32,099 bases of DNA from Thermoplasmata archaeon. Its GTDB lineage: Archaea > Thermoplasmatota > Thermoplasmata > Lutacidiplasmatales > UBA184. The notes under the pieces were generated by a model. The model ran no database searches and was not told the DNA's origin. It worked only from the letters and a program-made list of their open reading frames with translations. Location of the stretch: NCBI GenBank assembly GCA_021823345.1, contig JAKAOF010000005.1, positions 4,206 through 36,304 on the forward strand, in the 5' to 3' direction. How positions within the stretch are numbered: position 1 is the stretch's first letter; every line of letters starts with the position of its first letter. Positions 5,950 to 11,877 of the stretch are shown here, one piece after another. A program made the position numbers and the translations under genes.

Positions 5950-8900
5950 TCACCGGATGTCCTCCATGTTGATGCGCATGACCACGCCCATGCTGATGAG
6001 CTCGTTCAAGAGGAGCTTGAACGAATAGCTGATCTCGACGGGGTAGATGGCGGAAGTGTTCCCGCAGACCGGGCAGCGCAGGGCGCGGGCCCGAGAGTCC
6101 ATGATGGCGATGTGCCCGCACGAGGGGTTCCCGCAGACGTACTGGACGGTGCGGTCCGACTCGTCGAGCAGACGGTCCTTGATCACCATCGCGGCCCCGT
6201 GGCCGATGAGGGTGTCCCGCTCCATCTCTCCGAACCGGAGACCCCCTTGGCGGCTCCGCCCCTCCGTGGGTTGCCGGGTCAGGATCTGGACCGGTCCCCG
6301 GGAACGCATGTGGAGCTTGTTGGCGACCATGTGGTGGAGCTTCTGGTAGAAGATCACGCCGATGAAGACCTCCCCTTTCAGCTGCTGGCCCGTGACGCCG
6401 TCGAACATGACCTGGCGGCCGTTGGAGTGCAGTCCCTGCTCCTTGAGCATGTCCCGGATCGCCTCTTCCCGGTCCCCCGAGAAGGCCGTTCCGTCGATGA
6501 ACCGGCCGTCCAAGGCACCCATCTTCCCCCCGATCATCTCGAGGATGTGGGCGACCGTCATCCGCGAGGGGATGGCGTGCGGGTTCATGATCACGTCCGG
6601 CTGGATGCCGTCCCGTGTAAAGGGCATGTTCTCCTGGGGCACGATGAGTCCGACGACCCCCTTCTGTCCGTGCCGGGAGGCGAACTTGTCCCCGAGCTCG
6701 GGCACCCGCTCGTTCCGCACCTTCACCTTGACCAGCTTGGAGAAGTTCTCCCCATCCGTCAGGGTGACGGAGTCGACGAAACCGCCCTCTCCGGCCCGTA
6801 CGGTGACGGAGCTCTCCCGGCGCTTCTGGGGGGTGAGCAGGTCGGTCTTCTCCTCGAGGAAGCGCGGAGGAGAGGTCTTGCCGATGAGGACGTCCCCTTC
6901 GGAGACCGCGAGTTCCGGGTAGATGAGACCGTCCTCACCGAGGTGACGGTAGGCCGTGTCGACCCGGGCACCGGCGACATCCGGACGCGGGATCTCGAAC
7001 CGGTCGTCGTGGTTGCCGGGGTACTTGCGCTCCTCGGCCCGGTAGGTACGGAAGAAGGAGGAGCGTCCGAGCCCCCGCTCGATGGCCCCCTTGCTGATGA
7101 CCACGGCATCCTGCATGTTGTAGCCTTCGAAGGAGAGCAGGGCCACGACGAAGTTCTGTCCGGCCGGTCGCTCCATGAAGTGCGTGTAGCGTTGGGTCTC
7201 GGTCGCCACGAGCGGGGCCTGCGGGTAGTGCAGCACGTGCCCGCGGGTGTCCGGGCGGTACCGGTAGTTGACGGACTCGAGCCCGAGGGACTGCTTGGCC
7301 ATCGCGGCGCCCATGGTGTTCCTCGGCGCGGAGTTGTGCTCCGCGTAGGGGATGAGCCCGGCGGCGACGCCCATGATGAGGTAGGGGTCGATCTCGAGGT
7401 GCGTGGTCTCCTTGGACAGGCCGAGGGGGACCTTGAACGGCTTCGAGCAGTACTGGCACACGAGGACCGAGTCGGTCTCCTTGGCGCCCACGTTCTGCCA
7501 GGTCACGTCCTTCTTGGAGAGGGTGTGGGAGCACTCGGGGCAGCGCTCGGGGGTCTCGTAGGCGTCGACCGCGACGAGGGAGTCCTCCTCCTCTTCGGCG
7601 TCGAGCCACTCGATCTTGCCGGTACGGATGAGGTCCGAGAAGCTCATGGTGCCGCCCAAGAGCGCCTCGATGTCCGGGCGCGTCACCCGGGGGGTGCCGT
7701 TCTGGACGACGATGAGGGCGCGTCGGAGCCGGCCCCGGTCGCAGTTCACGATGACCTCGTTCATCTGCCCGTCGTAACGGACGTTGACCTCGCTGCCCCG
7801 GCTCATGAGCGCGGGGGAGAGGTTGCCGGTCCGGCGTCGGGCCCGGATCTCGTTCACGAGCGTCTCGGGATTGGAATGGAGCCCCACGAGGTTCCCGTTC
7901 ACGAAGACCCTAGCGGCGCGCTTAGCGCCCCGCGGAGCGTTCTTCTCGACCGCGAGGTGGCTGGAGATCTCGCGGGTGTCGAGATCGCGCAGCACCAGCG
8001 TCACTTCCTCGTCGTCCGCGCCCTCGCTCACGTCGACCATGAGGGCGTAGTTCTTGACGAGACCGCAGTTCTGCCCTTCCGGGGTCTCGTTGGGACAGAG
8101 CCGTCCCCACTGGGTGGGGTGCAGGTCTCGAGCCTCGAAGTGGGGCTGGCTGTGGGTAAGCTGGCTGGTCACCCGTCGCAGGTGGGAGAAGGTGGAGACG
8201 TAGCTCGTGCGGTCGAGCATCTGGGAGACGCCGGCGCGGCCGCCCACCCAGTTCCCGGTCCCCAGGGCATGGACCATGCGCTGGGTCAGGAGGTCCGGAC
8301 GGATGGCGGAGGACACGCGGAGGTCGCGCTTCCGAGCGAAGGAGCGCTCCAGCTGGTACTTGAGGTCCTTGAGGAGCATGGTGAACGCCACGCGGAAGAG
8401 GTCCTCCATGAGGTCCCCGGCGAGCTTGAGCCGCTTGTTCGCGTAGTGGTCCTTGTCATCCTCCTTTCGCATGTCGAGGTTGAGTTCGAGGACGGTCCGG
8501 GCGATGCGGCCGAGGTAGAGGGCCTTCTTGAGCCGGTCCCCGGGCATGTCGCCCAGGTGCGGGAGCACGAGGTGGTCCAAGATCCCGGCGACCTTCTTCG
8601 TCCGGTACTCCTTGGCCTGTCCGGTCGCGAACTTCTTCTCAAGGTAGAGGAGCGCATCTTCCGGGGTCGAGATCCCCTCGGGGGGGTAGGACTGCGGGTT
8701 GGCGGCATCCTCCAAGTTCACGTTGAGGATGTGCTTCATGGTCTGGACGAACGCTTCGTCCAGGTTCATGAGCTCGGCGAGCACGGCCTGCTCGATCTCC
8801 TCATCGTTGGACATCCCGAGGGCCTTCATCAGGACCACGAGGGGGATCTGCCCGGCGGTGGAGGGGATCGACACTTGCAGGATACCGTCCTTCTTCTTCT

Positions 8901-9639
8901 CGACGGTGAGCGGGCTCCGATAGCCTCCCCGCTGGGAGAAGATCCGGGCGCTCTCGACCGGCACGGTCCCGTAGCGGTCGCTGAGCTCGGCGAAGATCCG
9001 GTTGCTGGCGCGGTCCTCGAGCGAGATGATGACGCGCTCGGTACCGGAGATGATGAAGTACCCGCCGGGGTCGTAGGGGTCCTCGTTGTATTCCATGAGC
9101 CGGGCACGGTACTCCTCTTCCGAGAGGGGCATCCCGCAGCCGCGCTCCATGCCCGCCTTGCTCAGGCTGCACAGGCGGCTCCGGACCATGATGGGCATGT
9201 CGCCGATGTGGACGAGCTCGGATTCGCGCTCGACCCCGTTTTCGACCACGGTGACCTTGAGGTAGACCGGGGCCTGGTAGGTAAGGTTCCGAAGACGGGC
9301 CTCCATCGGGGTCGGGGGAGAAATGGCGGGCTTGGTGTCGACGGGCTGCTTCCCCTGGAGCGGGCCCACGAAGATGGTGGGTTCCGAACTGGGGTCGATC
9401 GCCCCCGTGCGGTGGTCCCGCCGGCGGCCGACCCGTACGTAGATGGAGCTCTTGGTCTTCTCGACATCGAGCTTGATGATCCCGCGGTCGCTCGAGTCCT
9501 CGCTGAGACGGGCCTCGTCGACCACCATCTGCATGCGCGAGAAGGGGTTCTCGGGGGACGGAATGAAGTCATTGAAGCTGGCGAGGTGATGATTCACGGC
9601 GGAGCGTTCCTTGAAGAATGCGCTGATGATCTCTCGCAT
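5950..9639 (-). CDS. rpoB: DNA-directed RNA polymerase subunit B (unsplit B''+B')
   Basis: 1229 aa; [44 protein letters not shown]-terminal zinc ribbon CGNPSCGH...CPVCG. Confidence 0.98.
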
Positions 9640-9653
9640 GTTCCTTTACCTCC

Positions 9654-9983
9654 TTAATCCAACCGACCTTCAGTGATGACCCGATAATGCACGGTCTGGC
9701 CTGCCGTGGGGGAGTTCCGGCGGATCTCCACGATCCGACCGACCAGGTTCTCGTTCGCGGCGATCGCGGCCCGGTAGGCCGGGTCGCTGGCGAGCCCGGG
9801 GTCGTAGAGGGTGATCTTGGGGAGACGGTCCGGGGTGGTCGCGAACTGGGAGAGGATCTTCATCCCGGCCTCATGGGAGAGCAGGAAATGCTCGGGCACC
9901 ATGTTGTGCCGGACAAAGTCGGTCCCCTGGAGCGCTTCCTTCGCCTGAGACTCCTTCTTCTTCCTAGAACTTCGTGCGGGCAT
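9654..9983 (-). CDS. rpoH: DNA-directed RNA polymerase subunit H
   Basis: 109 aa; HNMVPEHFLLSHEAGMKIL...LPKITLYDP...VGRIVEIRRNSPTAGQTVHYRVI; directly upstream of rpoB. Confidence 0.95.
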   Translation of the reverse strand: MPARSSRKKKESQAKEALQGTDFVRHNMVPEHFLLSHEAGMKILSQFATTPDRLPKITLYDPGLASDPAYRAAIAANENLVGRIVEIRRNSPTAGQTVHYRVITEGRLD

Positions 9984-10030
9984 GATTTTTACACCTCAGT
10001 GGAGACGGAAAAGGGGCGGGCCCGCGGGGA

Positions 10031-10064
10031 GTCCCGGGCGGAAACGGAGTACCGTAGACCGCCT
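10031..10064 (-). other. predicted BHB intron (34 nt) in tRNA-Lys T-loop, position 59/60
   Basis: Exon helix = T-stem CGGGG/CCCCG; central helix TTCG/CGGG (two G-U); bulges AAA and ACT; intron stem GGCGG/CCGCC with inner hairpin ACGG-TACT-CCGT; cleavage after the second bulge nucleotide restores TTCGAAT. Confidence 0.87.
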
Positions 10065-10103
10065 TTCGAACCCCGGACCAACCGGTTAAAAGCCGGATGC
10101 TCT

Positions 10104-10134
10104 ATCCCGGGCCGGGGGTACCACCCTCCGACCT
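10104..10134 (-). other. predicted BHB intron (31 nt) in tRNA-Lys D-loop, position 20/21
   Basis: Central 4 bp helix CCCG/CGGG; 3-nt bulges GCA and ATA; intron stem GGTCGG/CCGGCC continuing to GGG/CCC. Confidence 0.8.
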
Positions 10135-10164
10135 GCCGGGCTGAGCTACGGACCCACCCCAACT

Positions 10165-10494
10165 TCACGGCAAACTCTCCAGGCGGCTTATCACAGACCA
10201 GAGAGACGTACGACCATGCACCGGAAGGTTCGAATCGTTGGCGAGATCATCCAGGATCCCGACCGCGCTCGCCACCCGCACATCTTCTGCCACGGATTGC
10301 TTGTTGAGCTGGTCCATGGCCCCCTGGATCCCCCGGCGCAGGTTGCGGGGGAGCGAGGTGTCCTGGCTCAGCTCGTGCAGGAGGTCGAGAACCCCCTTCA
10401 TAGCGACGGATGGCTCCGGAGAAGGAGTCGGAACGGCGGGCCCCGCGAAACCATTCGCGGAGACGCCCTTGGAGGAGTTCGTGCTGACGTTCAT
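10165..10494 (-). CDS. UPF0147 family protein
   Basis: LLHELSQDTSLPRNLRRGIQGAMDQL...RVASAVGILDDLANDSNLPVHGRTSLWSVISRLE; ATG at 10494 overlaps the upstream stop by 4 nt. Confidence 0.85.
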   Translation of the reverse strand: MNVSTNSSKGVSANGFAGPAVPTPSPEPSVAMKGVLDLLHELSQDTSLPRNLRRGIQGAMDQLNKQSVAEDVRVASAVGILDDLANDSNLPVHGRTSLWSVISRLESLP

Positions 10495-10832
10495 CCGGTC
10501 GCCTTCCGCTCGCCGCTCTCCTTGTAGGAGGTCACCACGAGCAAGGTCTTCGATTCCCGGATGCCGCGCACGTCGGGGAGACGGTGGAGCACGAATTCCT
10601 TGAGATCCCCGTAGTGGGGGAAACGCACCTTGAGGAAGATATCGATGTCCCCGGTGACGAGGTAGACGTCCTCGACCTCGCTGAAGCGCGAGACCTCGAG
10701 CGCCACATGGTCGGCCTCGGTGGTCTCCACCTTCAGCCCGATGATCGCGACGACCGTGTCCTCTCCCCAAACCTTTGTAAAGGCGCCTTCGACCGCTGTG
10801 CCGACCGGAGACTTGTCCCTATCCTGTGCCAT
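10491..10832 (-). CDS. Lrp/AsnC ligand-binding-domain (RAM-like) protein without an HTH
   Basis: 113 aa; VVAIIGLKVETTEADHVALEVSRFSEVEDVYLVTGDIDIFLKVRFPHYGDLKEFVLHRLPDVRGIRESKTLLVVTSYKE. Confidence 0.8.
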   Translation of the reverse strand: MAQDRDKSPVGTAVEGAFTKVWGEDTVVAIIGLKVETTEADHVALEVSRFSEVEDVYLVTGDIDIFLKVRFPHYGDLKEFVLHRLPDVRGIRESKTLLVVTSYKESGERKATG

Positions 10833-10850
10833 TGTGCTCGACCCGGATCT

Positions 10851-11039
10851 TCACCGAGGGGGCAGGGATTCCACTTCTTCTCGCAGATCGTCGATTACCA
10901 TGTCAATGAGCGCCGAGGGGGATACCGCGCGGTATTCCCGCCGACCATTGGCCTCCGAAGCCACCCGGGCCACCAGCCCTGCGGTGGTCCGGATGAATTC
11001 CACATTGACTATGAGCTCGTCTACCAAAGAGTACCCCAC
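10851..11039 (-). CDS. small conserved-looking protein of unknown function
   Basis: GYSLVDELIVNVEFIRTTAGLVARVASEANGRREYRAVSPSALIDMVIDDLREEVESLPPR; GTG at 11039, or ATG at 11063; TATA-like GGCTTAAT on the minus strand near 11071-11078. Confidence 0.5.
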   Translation of the reverse strand: MGYSLVDELIVNVEFIRTTAGLVARVASEANGRREYRAVSPSALIDMVIDDLREEVESLPPR

Positions 11040-11241
11040 GCACCCGCCCTCTGGGGCAAACATCCTCCCTATTAAGCCTTTTGGTTCTTTTGCTCCGCGC
11101 CCCGGGTACGGCGGGCGTTCCGGAGCACCAAGAACCGCCGGGAAAGCGACTCCACGAACCATCCCTCGAGGGTGGCTCCCCAGGTTTGGAATCGCCGCGG
11201 GCCATTTGAAAGCCTCCTCCCCATATTTCACTGAGGAAGAC

Positions 11242-11877
11242 ATGTCGCAGTACTGTGACGCGATGGATGGCCCCGTGGCGACCGCGGCCCGGAGGGCGAT
11301 CGAGACCAAGGATGTCCGGGAAGTTCTGGCCTGGGTCCCTCAGTCCAGCGAGGAAGAGTTGACGACCGCCTTTGACCGGACCTTGACCGAACGGGACAAG
11401 AGCCGGGAGGCGAAGGACATCGCCGACCTGTGGTTCATCGAGACGGTCGTCCGTCTCCACATGCCCGAGGAGGGACTCCCCTTCACCGGGCTCAAGCCCG
11501 AGGGGCTCGAGGAAGGACCGGTCTACGCTCGAGCCAAGCGGGCCATCGCCGATGAACGGCCCGAACTGCTCGTCCGGTACCTCCAGAACGTCCTCGACGA
11601 TGAGGTCCGGATCCGCTTCCGCGAGGTCCTCGCCCACAAGGGCTCCCATCCCAGCGACACCGAGGAAGGACGGGCCTACATCCGGGCGTTCCTGGAGTTC
11701 ACCGGGTTCTGCCAGGGGGTCTACGACCACGTGACGACCTCCCTCGGGCACGCGCACGGCATGTCCATCCCGATGCCCCGTCCGGAAGAGCAGCGACCCA
11801 CCCCCCCCGGTCCGACCCCGCCCCCCAAGGGCCCCACGCTCGACTTGAGGAATCTCGAAGAGCCTAACCCGGCGTAG
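11242..11877 (+). CDS. DUF6448-like protein
   Basis: CDAMDGPVATAARRAIETKDVREVLAWVPQSSEEELTTAFDRTL...ADLWFIETVVRLHMPEEGLPFTGLKPEGLEEGP; Pro-rich C-terminus. Confidence 0.75.
   Translation: MSQYCDAMDGPVATAARRAIETKDVREVLAWVPQSSEEELTTAFDRTLTERDKSREAKDIADLWFIETVVRLHMPEEGLPFTGLKPEGLEEGPVYARAKRAIADERPELLVRYLQNVLDDEVRIRFREVLAHKGSHPSDTEEGRAYIRAFLEFTGFCQGVYDHVTTSLGHAHGMSIPMPRPEEQRPTPPGPTPPPKGPTLDLRNLEEPNPA

Follow-up and report, generated by a model that had tools for sequence, protein, structure and literature searches.

The window, a 32,099-nt stretch of a Thermoplasmata genome, carries a tRNA-Lys(UUU) gene with two interruptions, one at 20/21 in the D loop and the other at 59/60 in the T loop. We estimate a probability of about 0.94 that this is a functional, single-copy gene with two archaeal protein-spliced introns, which would be removed by EndA cleavage and RtcB ligation. 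The gene is real and appears to be functional, and its splicing is strongly inferred. The nearest named relative of the source genome is isolate FK3.bin56, with 94% rpoB identity.

Structure of the interrupted gene

The gene occupies positions 10017–10155 of the minus strand and is 139 nt in length unspliced and 74 nt spliced; CCA is not encoded. Exon 1 (10135–10155, 21 nt) comprises the 5' acceptor strand, the 5' strand of the D stem and the D loop through position 20. It is followed by intron 1 (10104–10134, 31 nt) and by exon 2 (10065–10103, 39 nt), which runs from the 3' strand of the D stem through the anticodon arm (UUU) and the 5' strand of the T stem to T-loop position 59. Intron 2 (10031–10064, 34 nt) separates this from exon 3 (10017–10030, 14 nt), made up of position 60, the 3' strands of the T stem and acceptor, and the discriminator G. 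The adjoining genes are on the minus strand as well: upstream, across a 9 bp gap, a gene for a UPF0147 protein (10165–10770; start codon uncertain), and downstream rpoH (Rpb5 C-terminal; 9654–9983), a conserved neighbour that serves as the basis for orthology. On the same strand is rpoB (5950–9639, 1229 aa), the source of the tree discussed below. On the opposite (plus) strand, an ORF with a DUF6448 domain (10720–11877; E 6e-43) overlaps the UPF0147 ORF in its 5' part.

The elements listed in the initial annotation are all in place: a GGGTCCG/CGGGCCC acceptor arm, a CTTTTAA anticodon loop, 4-bp helices and 3-nt bulges, with introns at 20/21 and 59/60 and none at 37/38, in a genome of euryarchaeal type. 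Both inserts are of the archaeal EndA-spliced (BHB) type, with a 4-bp central helix between 3-nt bulges at the exon-intron boundaries, and the motif assignment needs one refinement. The T-loop intron is a full BHB, in which the outer helix is the T stem, the central helix is TTCG/CGGG, the bulges are AAA and ACT and the intron stem has 5 bp; it also fits the strict hBHBh' motif. The D-loop intron has a CCCG/CGGG central helix, a GCA bulge on the 5' side and a 6-bp intron stem. At its 3' site, ATA stands opposite AG below the D stem to give a 2x3 internal loop; this intron is therefore a relaxed BHL and not a symmetric BHB (as defined in PMC8707768) and, with its 3' site in the internal loop, does not fit hBHBh'.

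Neither ARAGORN nor Rfam finds a tRNA anywhere in the window, the unspliced tRNA-Lys(UUU) gene included. When each of the four sites is cut behind the second base of its bulge, as had been proposed, the result is a 74-nt product that ARAGORN calls as tRNA-Lys(TTT); the boundary of the D-loop intron is ambiguous by one A, and the product is identical either way. The spliced sequence and the genome's tRNA-Lys(CUU) (contig C13), which has no intron, are collinear, with 90.5% identity over 74 nt. A search with the spliced sequence for a second tRNA-Lys(UUU), a check that the initial annotation had put forward, found none in the 1.86-Mb, 93.6% complete assembly. The inserts do not belong to the self-splicing group I or II introns, being only 31 and 34 nt long and having no Rfam match; the catalytic core of such introns is about 100 nt or more. 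Free folding of the whole precursor gives nearly the motif structure and surpasses shuffled sequences by only a modest margin (z -2.1; 5 of 200 shuffles as good), and folding energy alone is too weak to carry the claim of introns.

Seven further non-canonical introns were identified in the source genome (contigs C62, C44, C9, C43, C36 and C52). One is in the D region of tRNA-Arg(GCG); the others, mostly 32–34 nt in length, are at T-loop position 59/60 of tRNA-Arg(TCT), Asp(GTC), Gln(CTG), Asn(GTT), His(GTG) and Gly(TCC), and all six of these genes become ARAGORN tRNAs once spliced. With tRNA-Lys(UUU) included, seven different tRNAs of this genome use the 59/60 site. Canonical-site introns are present in tRNA-Met, Tyr, Trp and Leu(TAA). 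A relaxed second scan of the source genome found no more interrupted tRNAs; since several isotypes were not found, the count given here is a minimum. The 94-nt canonical-site intron of tRNA-Trp(CCA) (C18:25022–25188) seems to hold candidate box C/D-like motifs, such as are known for the guide-RNA intron of other euryarchaea. Contigs C3, C13, C23 and C31 each end a few bases from a tRNA gene: assembly breaks cluster at tRNAs.

Conservation and age of the introns

The introns had been described at the outset as unusual for a euryarchaeal genome. This is so with respect to published generalisations, but they are ordinary in their own family (f1): the tRNA-Lys(UUU) gene adjoins rpoH and has the D-loop intron in all 30 genomes examined at the rpoH locus, and 29 of the 30 have the T-loop intron also. 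The D-loop intron is 31 nt long in every f1 locus aligned. Named Thermoplasmata and several Methanomassiliicoccus-type records have introns at the same sites of the syntenic gene, and in many Thermoplasmatota families this gene, beside rpoH/rpoB, has one or both introns, again with the sites unchanged and with compensatory changes between exon and intron.

Pairing in the inserts is maintained as their sequences change. Among 32 distinct D-loop sequences, 93.8% of cells in the D-loop intron are paired, and changes on both sides of a pair are seen in 49 cells (shuffled mean 19; 0 of 500 shuffles reach 49); when the partners are slid by one column, pairing is only 44–46%. Of 54 distinct sequences, 41 retain all 4 pairs of the D central helix and 13 retain 3. 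The T central helix is fully paired in 46 of 49 distinct sequences; the fixed T loop leaves it free to vary on its intron side alone. In the relatives compared, all spliced D arms and T loops are normal. Rfam RF00005 scores of the orthologues form a series: 73.1 bits for the intronless gene, approximately 31 with one intron and no match with two. ARAGORN calls tRNA-Lys in 2 of 63 interrupted relatives unspliced and in 63 of 63 after the same cuts. Dozens of genomes thus have the inserts in their orthologue, with compensatory changes and with this uniform outcome of splicing, which is more than chance.

The distribution of the introns was determined by a pattern search of 390 genomes of the phylum. 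The tRNA-Lys core pattern is present in 338 of the 390, some of these matches being tRNA-Lys(CUU) as one mismatch was allowed. The D-intron pattern matched in 60 genomes, against 0 for reversed-pattern controls. Of these matches 59 are real, from 15 families, of which 11 belong to the window's class and 4 lie outside it; the match in genome G347, where the gene is intronless, was rejected as due to chance. Families f14, f34 and f50 have the D-loop intron only, and families f28 and f51, outside the window's class, have the T-loop intron without the D-loop intron. In f47 and f54 (L203, L204 and L205), also outside the class, tRNA-Lys(UUU) has, besides the D-loop intron, one at the canonical 37/38 site. 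The gene still adjoins rpoH in f14, f34 and f54. A T-loop intron is found at the same position in the tRNA-Lys(CUU) of f25, f23 and f11 (L381, L382 and L390). A viral-contig scan gave no match.

For the contig scan, rpoB was chosen because the rpoH alignment was too variable. On the rpoB tree (68 rows; a quick search under a simple model, with some long branches meeting), the distribution of the D intron can be explained with 1 change and that of the T intron with 3. The gut-type Methanomassiliicoccales clade that includes Methanomethylophilaceae and Methanoplasma has exactly intronless copies of the gene throughout and is nested among intron-bearing lineages. The two introns probably date far back in Thermoplasmatota, with precise loss in some lineages.

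The main rival to precise loss is repeated gain, in which the introns are not ancestral and were inserted time and again at favoured sites where exon sequences (CTAGG, TTCG) pre-form half of the motif. The number of different tRNAs interrupted at 59/60 in the source genome marks this as a favoured site; in addition, intronless orthologues retain the identical exon CTAGGTAG, and intron sequences and lengths differ widely between families. Repeated gain fits less well with the occurrence of the introns in the same gene and the same neighbourhood in distant families, with the few changes needed on the rpoB tree and with the constant length of the D-loop intron in f1, and we regard it as rather unlikely.

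It is very improbable that the gene is a pseudogene, that is, a decayed tRNA-Lys(UUU) whose role has been taken over by another tRNA-Lys. The codon AAA is rare relative to AAG in six window genes (5 versus 128 codons), so demand for tRNA-Lys(UUU) may be low, and the anticodon stem has one T-T mismatch (27-43). However, the assembly offers no other UUU copy, tRNA-Lys(CUU) is unable to read AAA under standard wobble rules, and selection acts across families on both the exon sequence and the pairing of the introns. Least credible of all is that the mature RNA keeps the inserts, its D and T arms being enlarged by them: although they form compact hairpins inside each arm, the conserved 4-bp helix and 3-nt bulges fall exactly at the boundaries, intronless orthologues are precise, and an interrupted T loop would be without the TTCGAAT fold.

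Splicing enzyme

The source genome encodes EndA as a single 383-aa ORF with two PF01974 repeats (contig C73); PF01974 has no match elsewhere in the genome, so there is no separate beta chain. The order of the repeats, with the catalytic one C-terminal, and the match of the protein to A. fulgidus EndA both fit an alpha'2 type for the sole EndA. At the Lys-bearing loop, A. pernix EndA (3p1z) has 11 extra residues, whereas the source EndA and those of 30 relatives keep a short loop. The link to a relaxed-specificity endonuclease drawn in the initial annotation was not borne out: the enzyme has neither the Crenarchaea-specific (CSL) nor the ARMAN-specific (ASL) loop that serves as the criterion for broad specificity. 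A gene for the RtcB ligase is present (contig C14).

We infer that the gene is transcribed and that its precursor is cleaved by the source EndA and ligated. In the folded precursor, both the D arm and the T arm would bear an intron hairpin, with a 4-bp helix between exon and intron at its boundary; homodimeric (alpha'2) EndA would cleave all four bonds, the RtcB ligase would then join the exons, and CCA would be added after ligation.

Enzymes of the alpha2 and alpha'2 types have been said to be unable to cut relaxed motifs (PMC4033280, PMC6379350). BHL cleavage has been reported for homodimers (PMC8707768), and A. fulgidus EndA has been reported to cleave BHL on full-length pre-tRNA (PMC6379350). 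The genomes compared here suggest that some alpha'2 enzymes cut BHL motifs. It seems reasonably likely that two introns, at least one of them relaxed, have stood at fixed sites since early Thermoplasmatota and are removed by a loop-less alpha'2 EndA. If this is true, a lineage can have a varied set of introns without the loop, and non-canonical introns need not be recent acquisitions.

Comparison with known systems

The introns have a cost in annotation, as the tRNA-Lys(UUU) gene is missed by standard finders. In Methanomassiliicoccus luminyensis, tRNA-Lys was not detected (PMC4153887); relatives labelled Methanomassiliicoccus (L071, L074, L076, L083, L092 and L093) have a tRNA-Lys(UUU) with both introns, and a doubly interrupted UUU gene may explain part of what is missing from M. 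luminyensis. The idea that introns hide both lysine tRNAs of this species is weakened by the fact that, in four f22 genomes, tRNA-Lys(CUU) has no intron.

Euryarchaeal tRNA genes have been described as having a single canonical-site intron (PMC4090602). Reviews assign one canonical intron to Euryarchaeota with alpha4 or alpha2 EndA, and hold that enzyme type, via the specific loop, sets the introns that a lineage can carry (PMC4090602, PMC4033280, PMC6379350). Thermoplasmatota, a large euryarchaeal lineage in which several non-canonical introns go together with loop-less alpha'2 enzymes, are a direct counter-example to this generalisation, and they form a clean test set because close relatives carry both, one or neither intron. 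BHB introns at 20/21 and 59/60 are already known from Thermoproteota and others (PMC4090602); what appears unreported is the depth of such introns in Thermoplasmatota with a loop-less alpha'2 EndA. No description of the Thermoplasmatota case was found in the accessible papers that were searched, and priority is not claimed.

Among Euryarchaeota, Methanopyrus kandleri and Methanothermobacter resemble the present case in having tRNA genes with more than one intron, and Thermoplasmatota are not on the list of such genes in the same paper (PMC4033280). The M. kandleri EndA is (alpha-beta)2 (PMC6379350, PMC4033280), unlike the alpha'2 enzyme of the source genome. The epsilon2 EndA of ARMAN-2 (Micrarchaeum) is likewise a single polypeptide, in an organism with introns at varied positions; it has three units, the catalytic one central, and an 11-aa loop with Lys161 (PMC12397907), whereas the source EndA has a C-terminal catalytic repeat and no insertion. 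Korarchaeum cryptofilum, with a homodimeric alpha2 EndA and non-canonical introns, has been presented as the only archaeon with this pairing; its EndA is said to bear the specific loop (PMC4033280), which the Thermoplasmata enzymes examined are without. The BHB/BHL introns of Thermoproteales and other Thermoproteota are alike in position (20/21 and 59/60), in occurring two per gene, in being short and in being cut within the bulges (PMC4090602, PMC8450103). These organisms differ in their (alpha-beta)2 EndA with the Crenarchaea-specific loop, as against a loop-less alpha'2 enzyme in the source genome. Thermoproteales introns, moreover, have been described as recent and transposing, whereas the Thermoplasmatota gene keeps its introns across many families.
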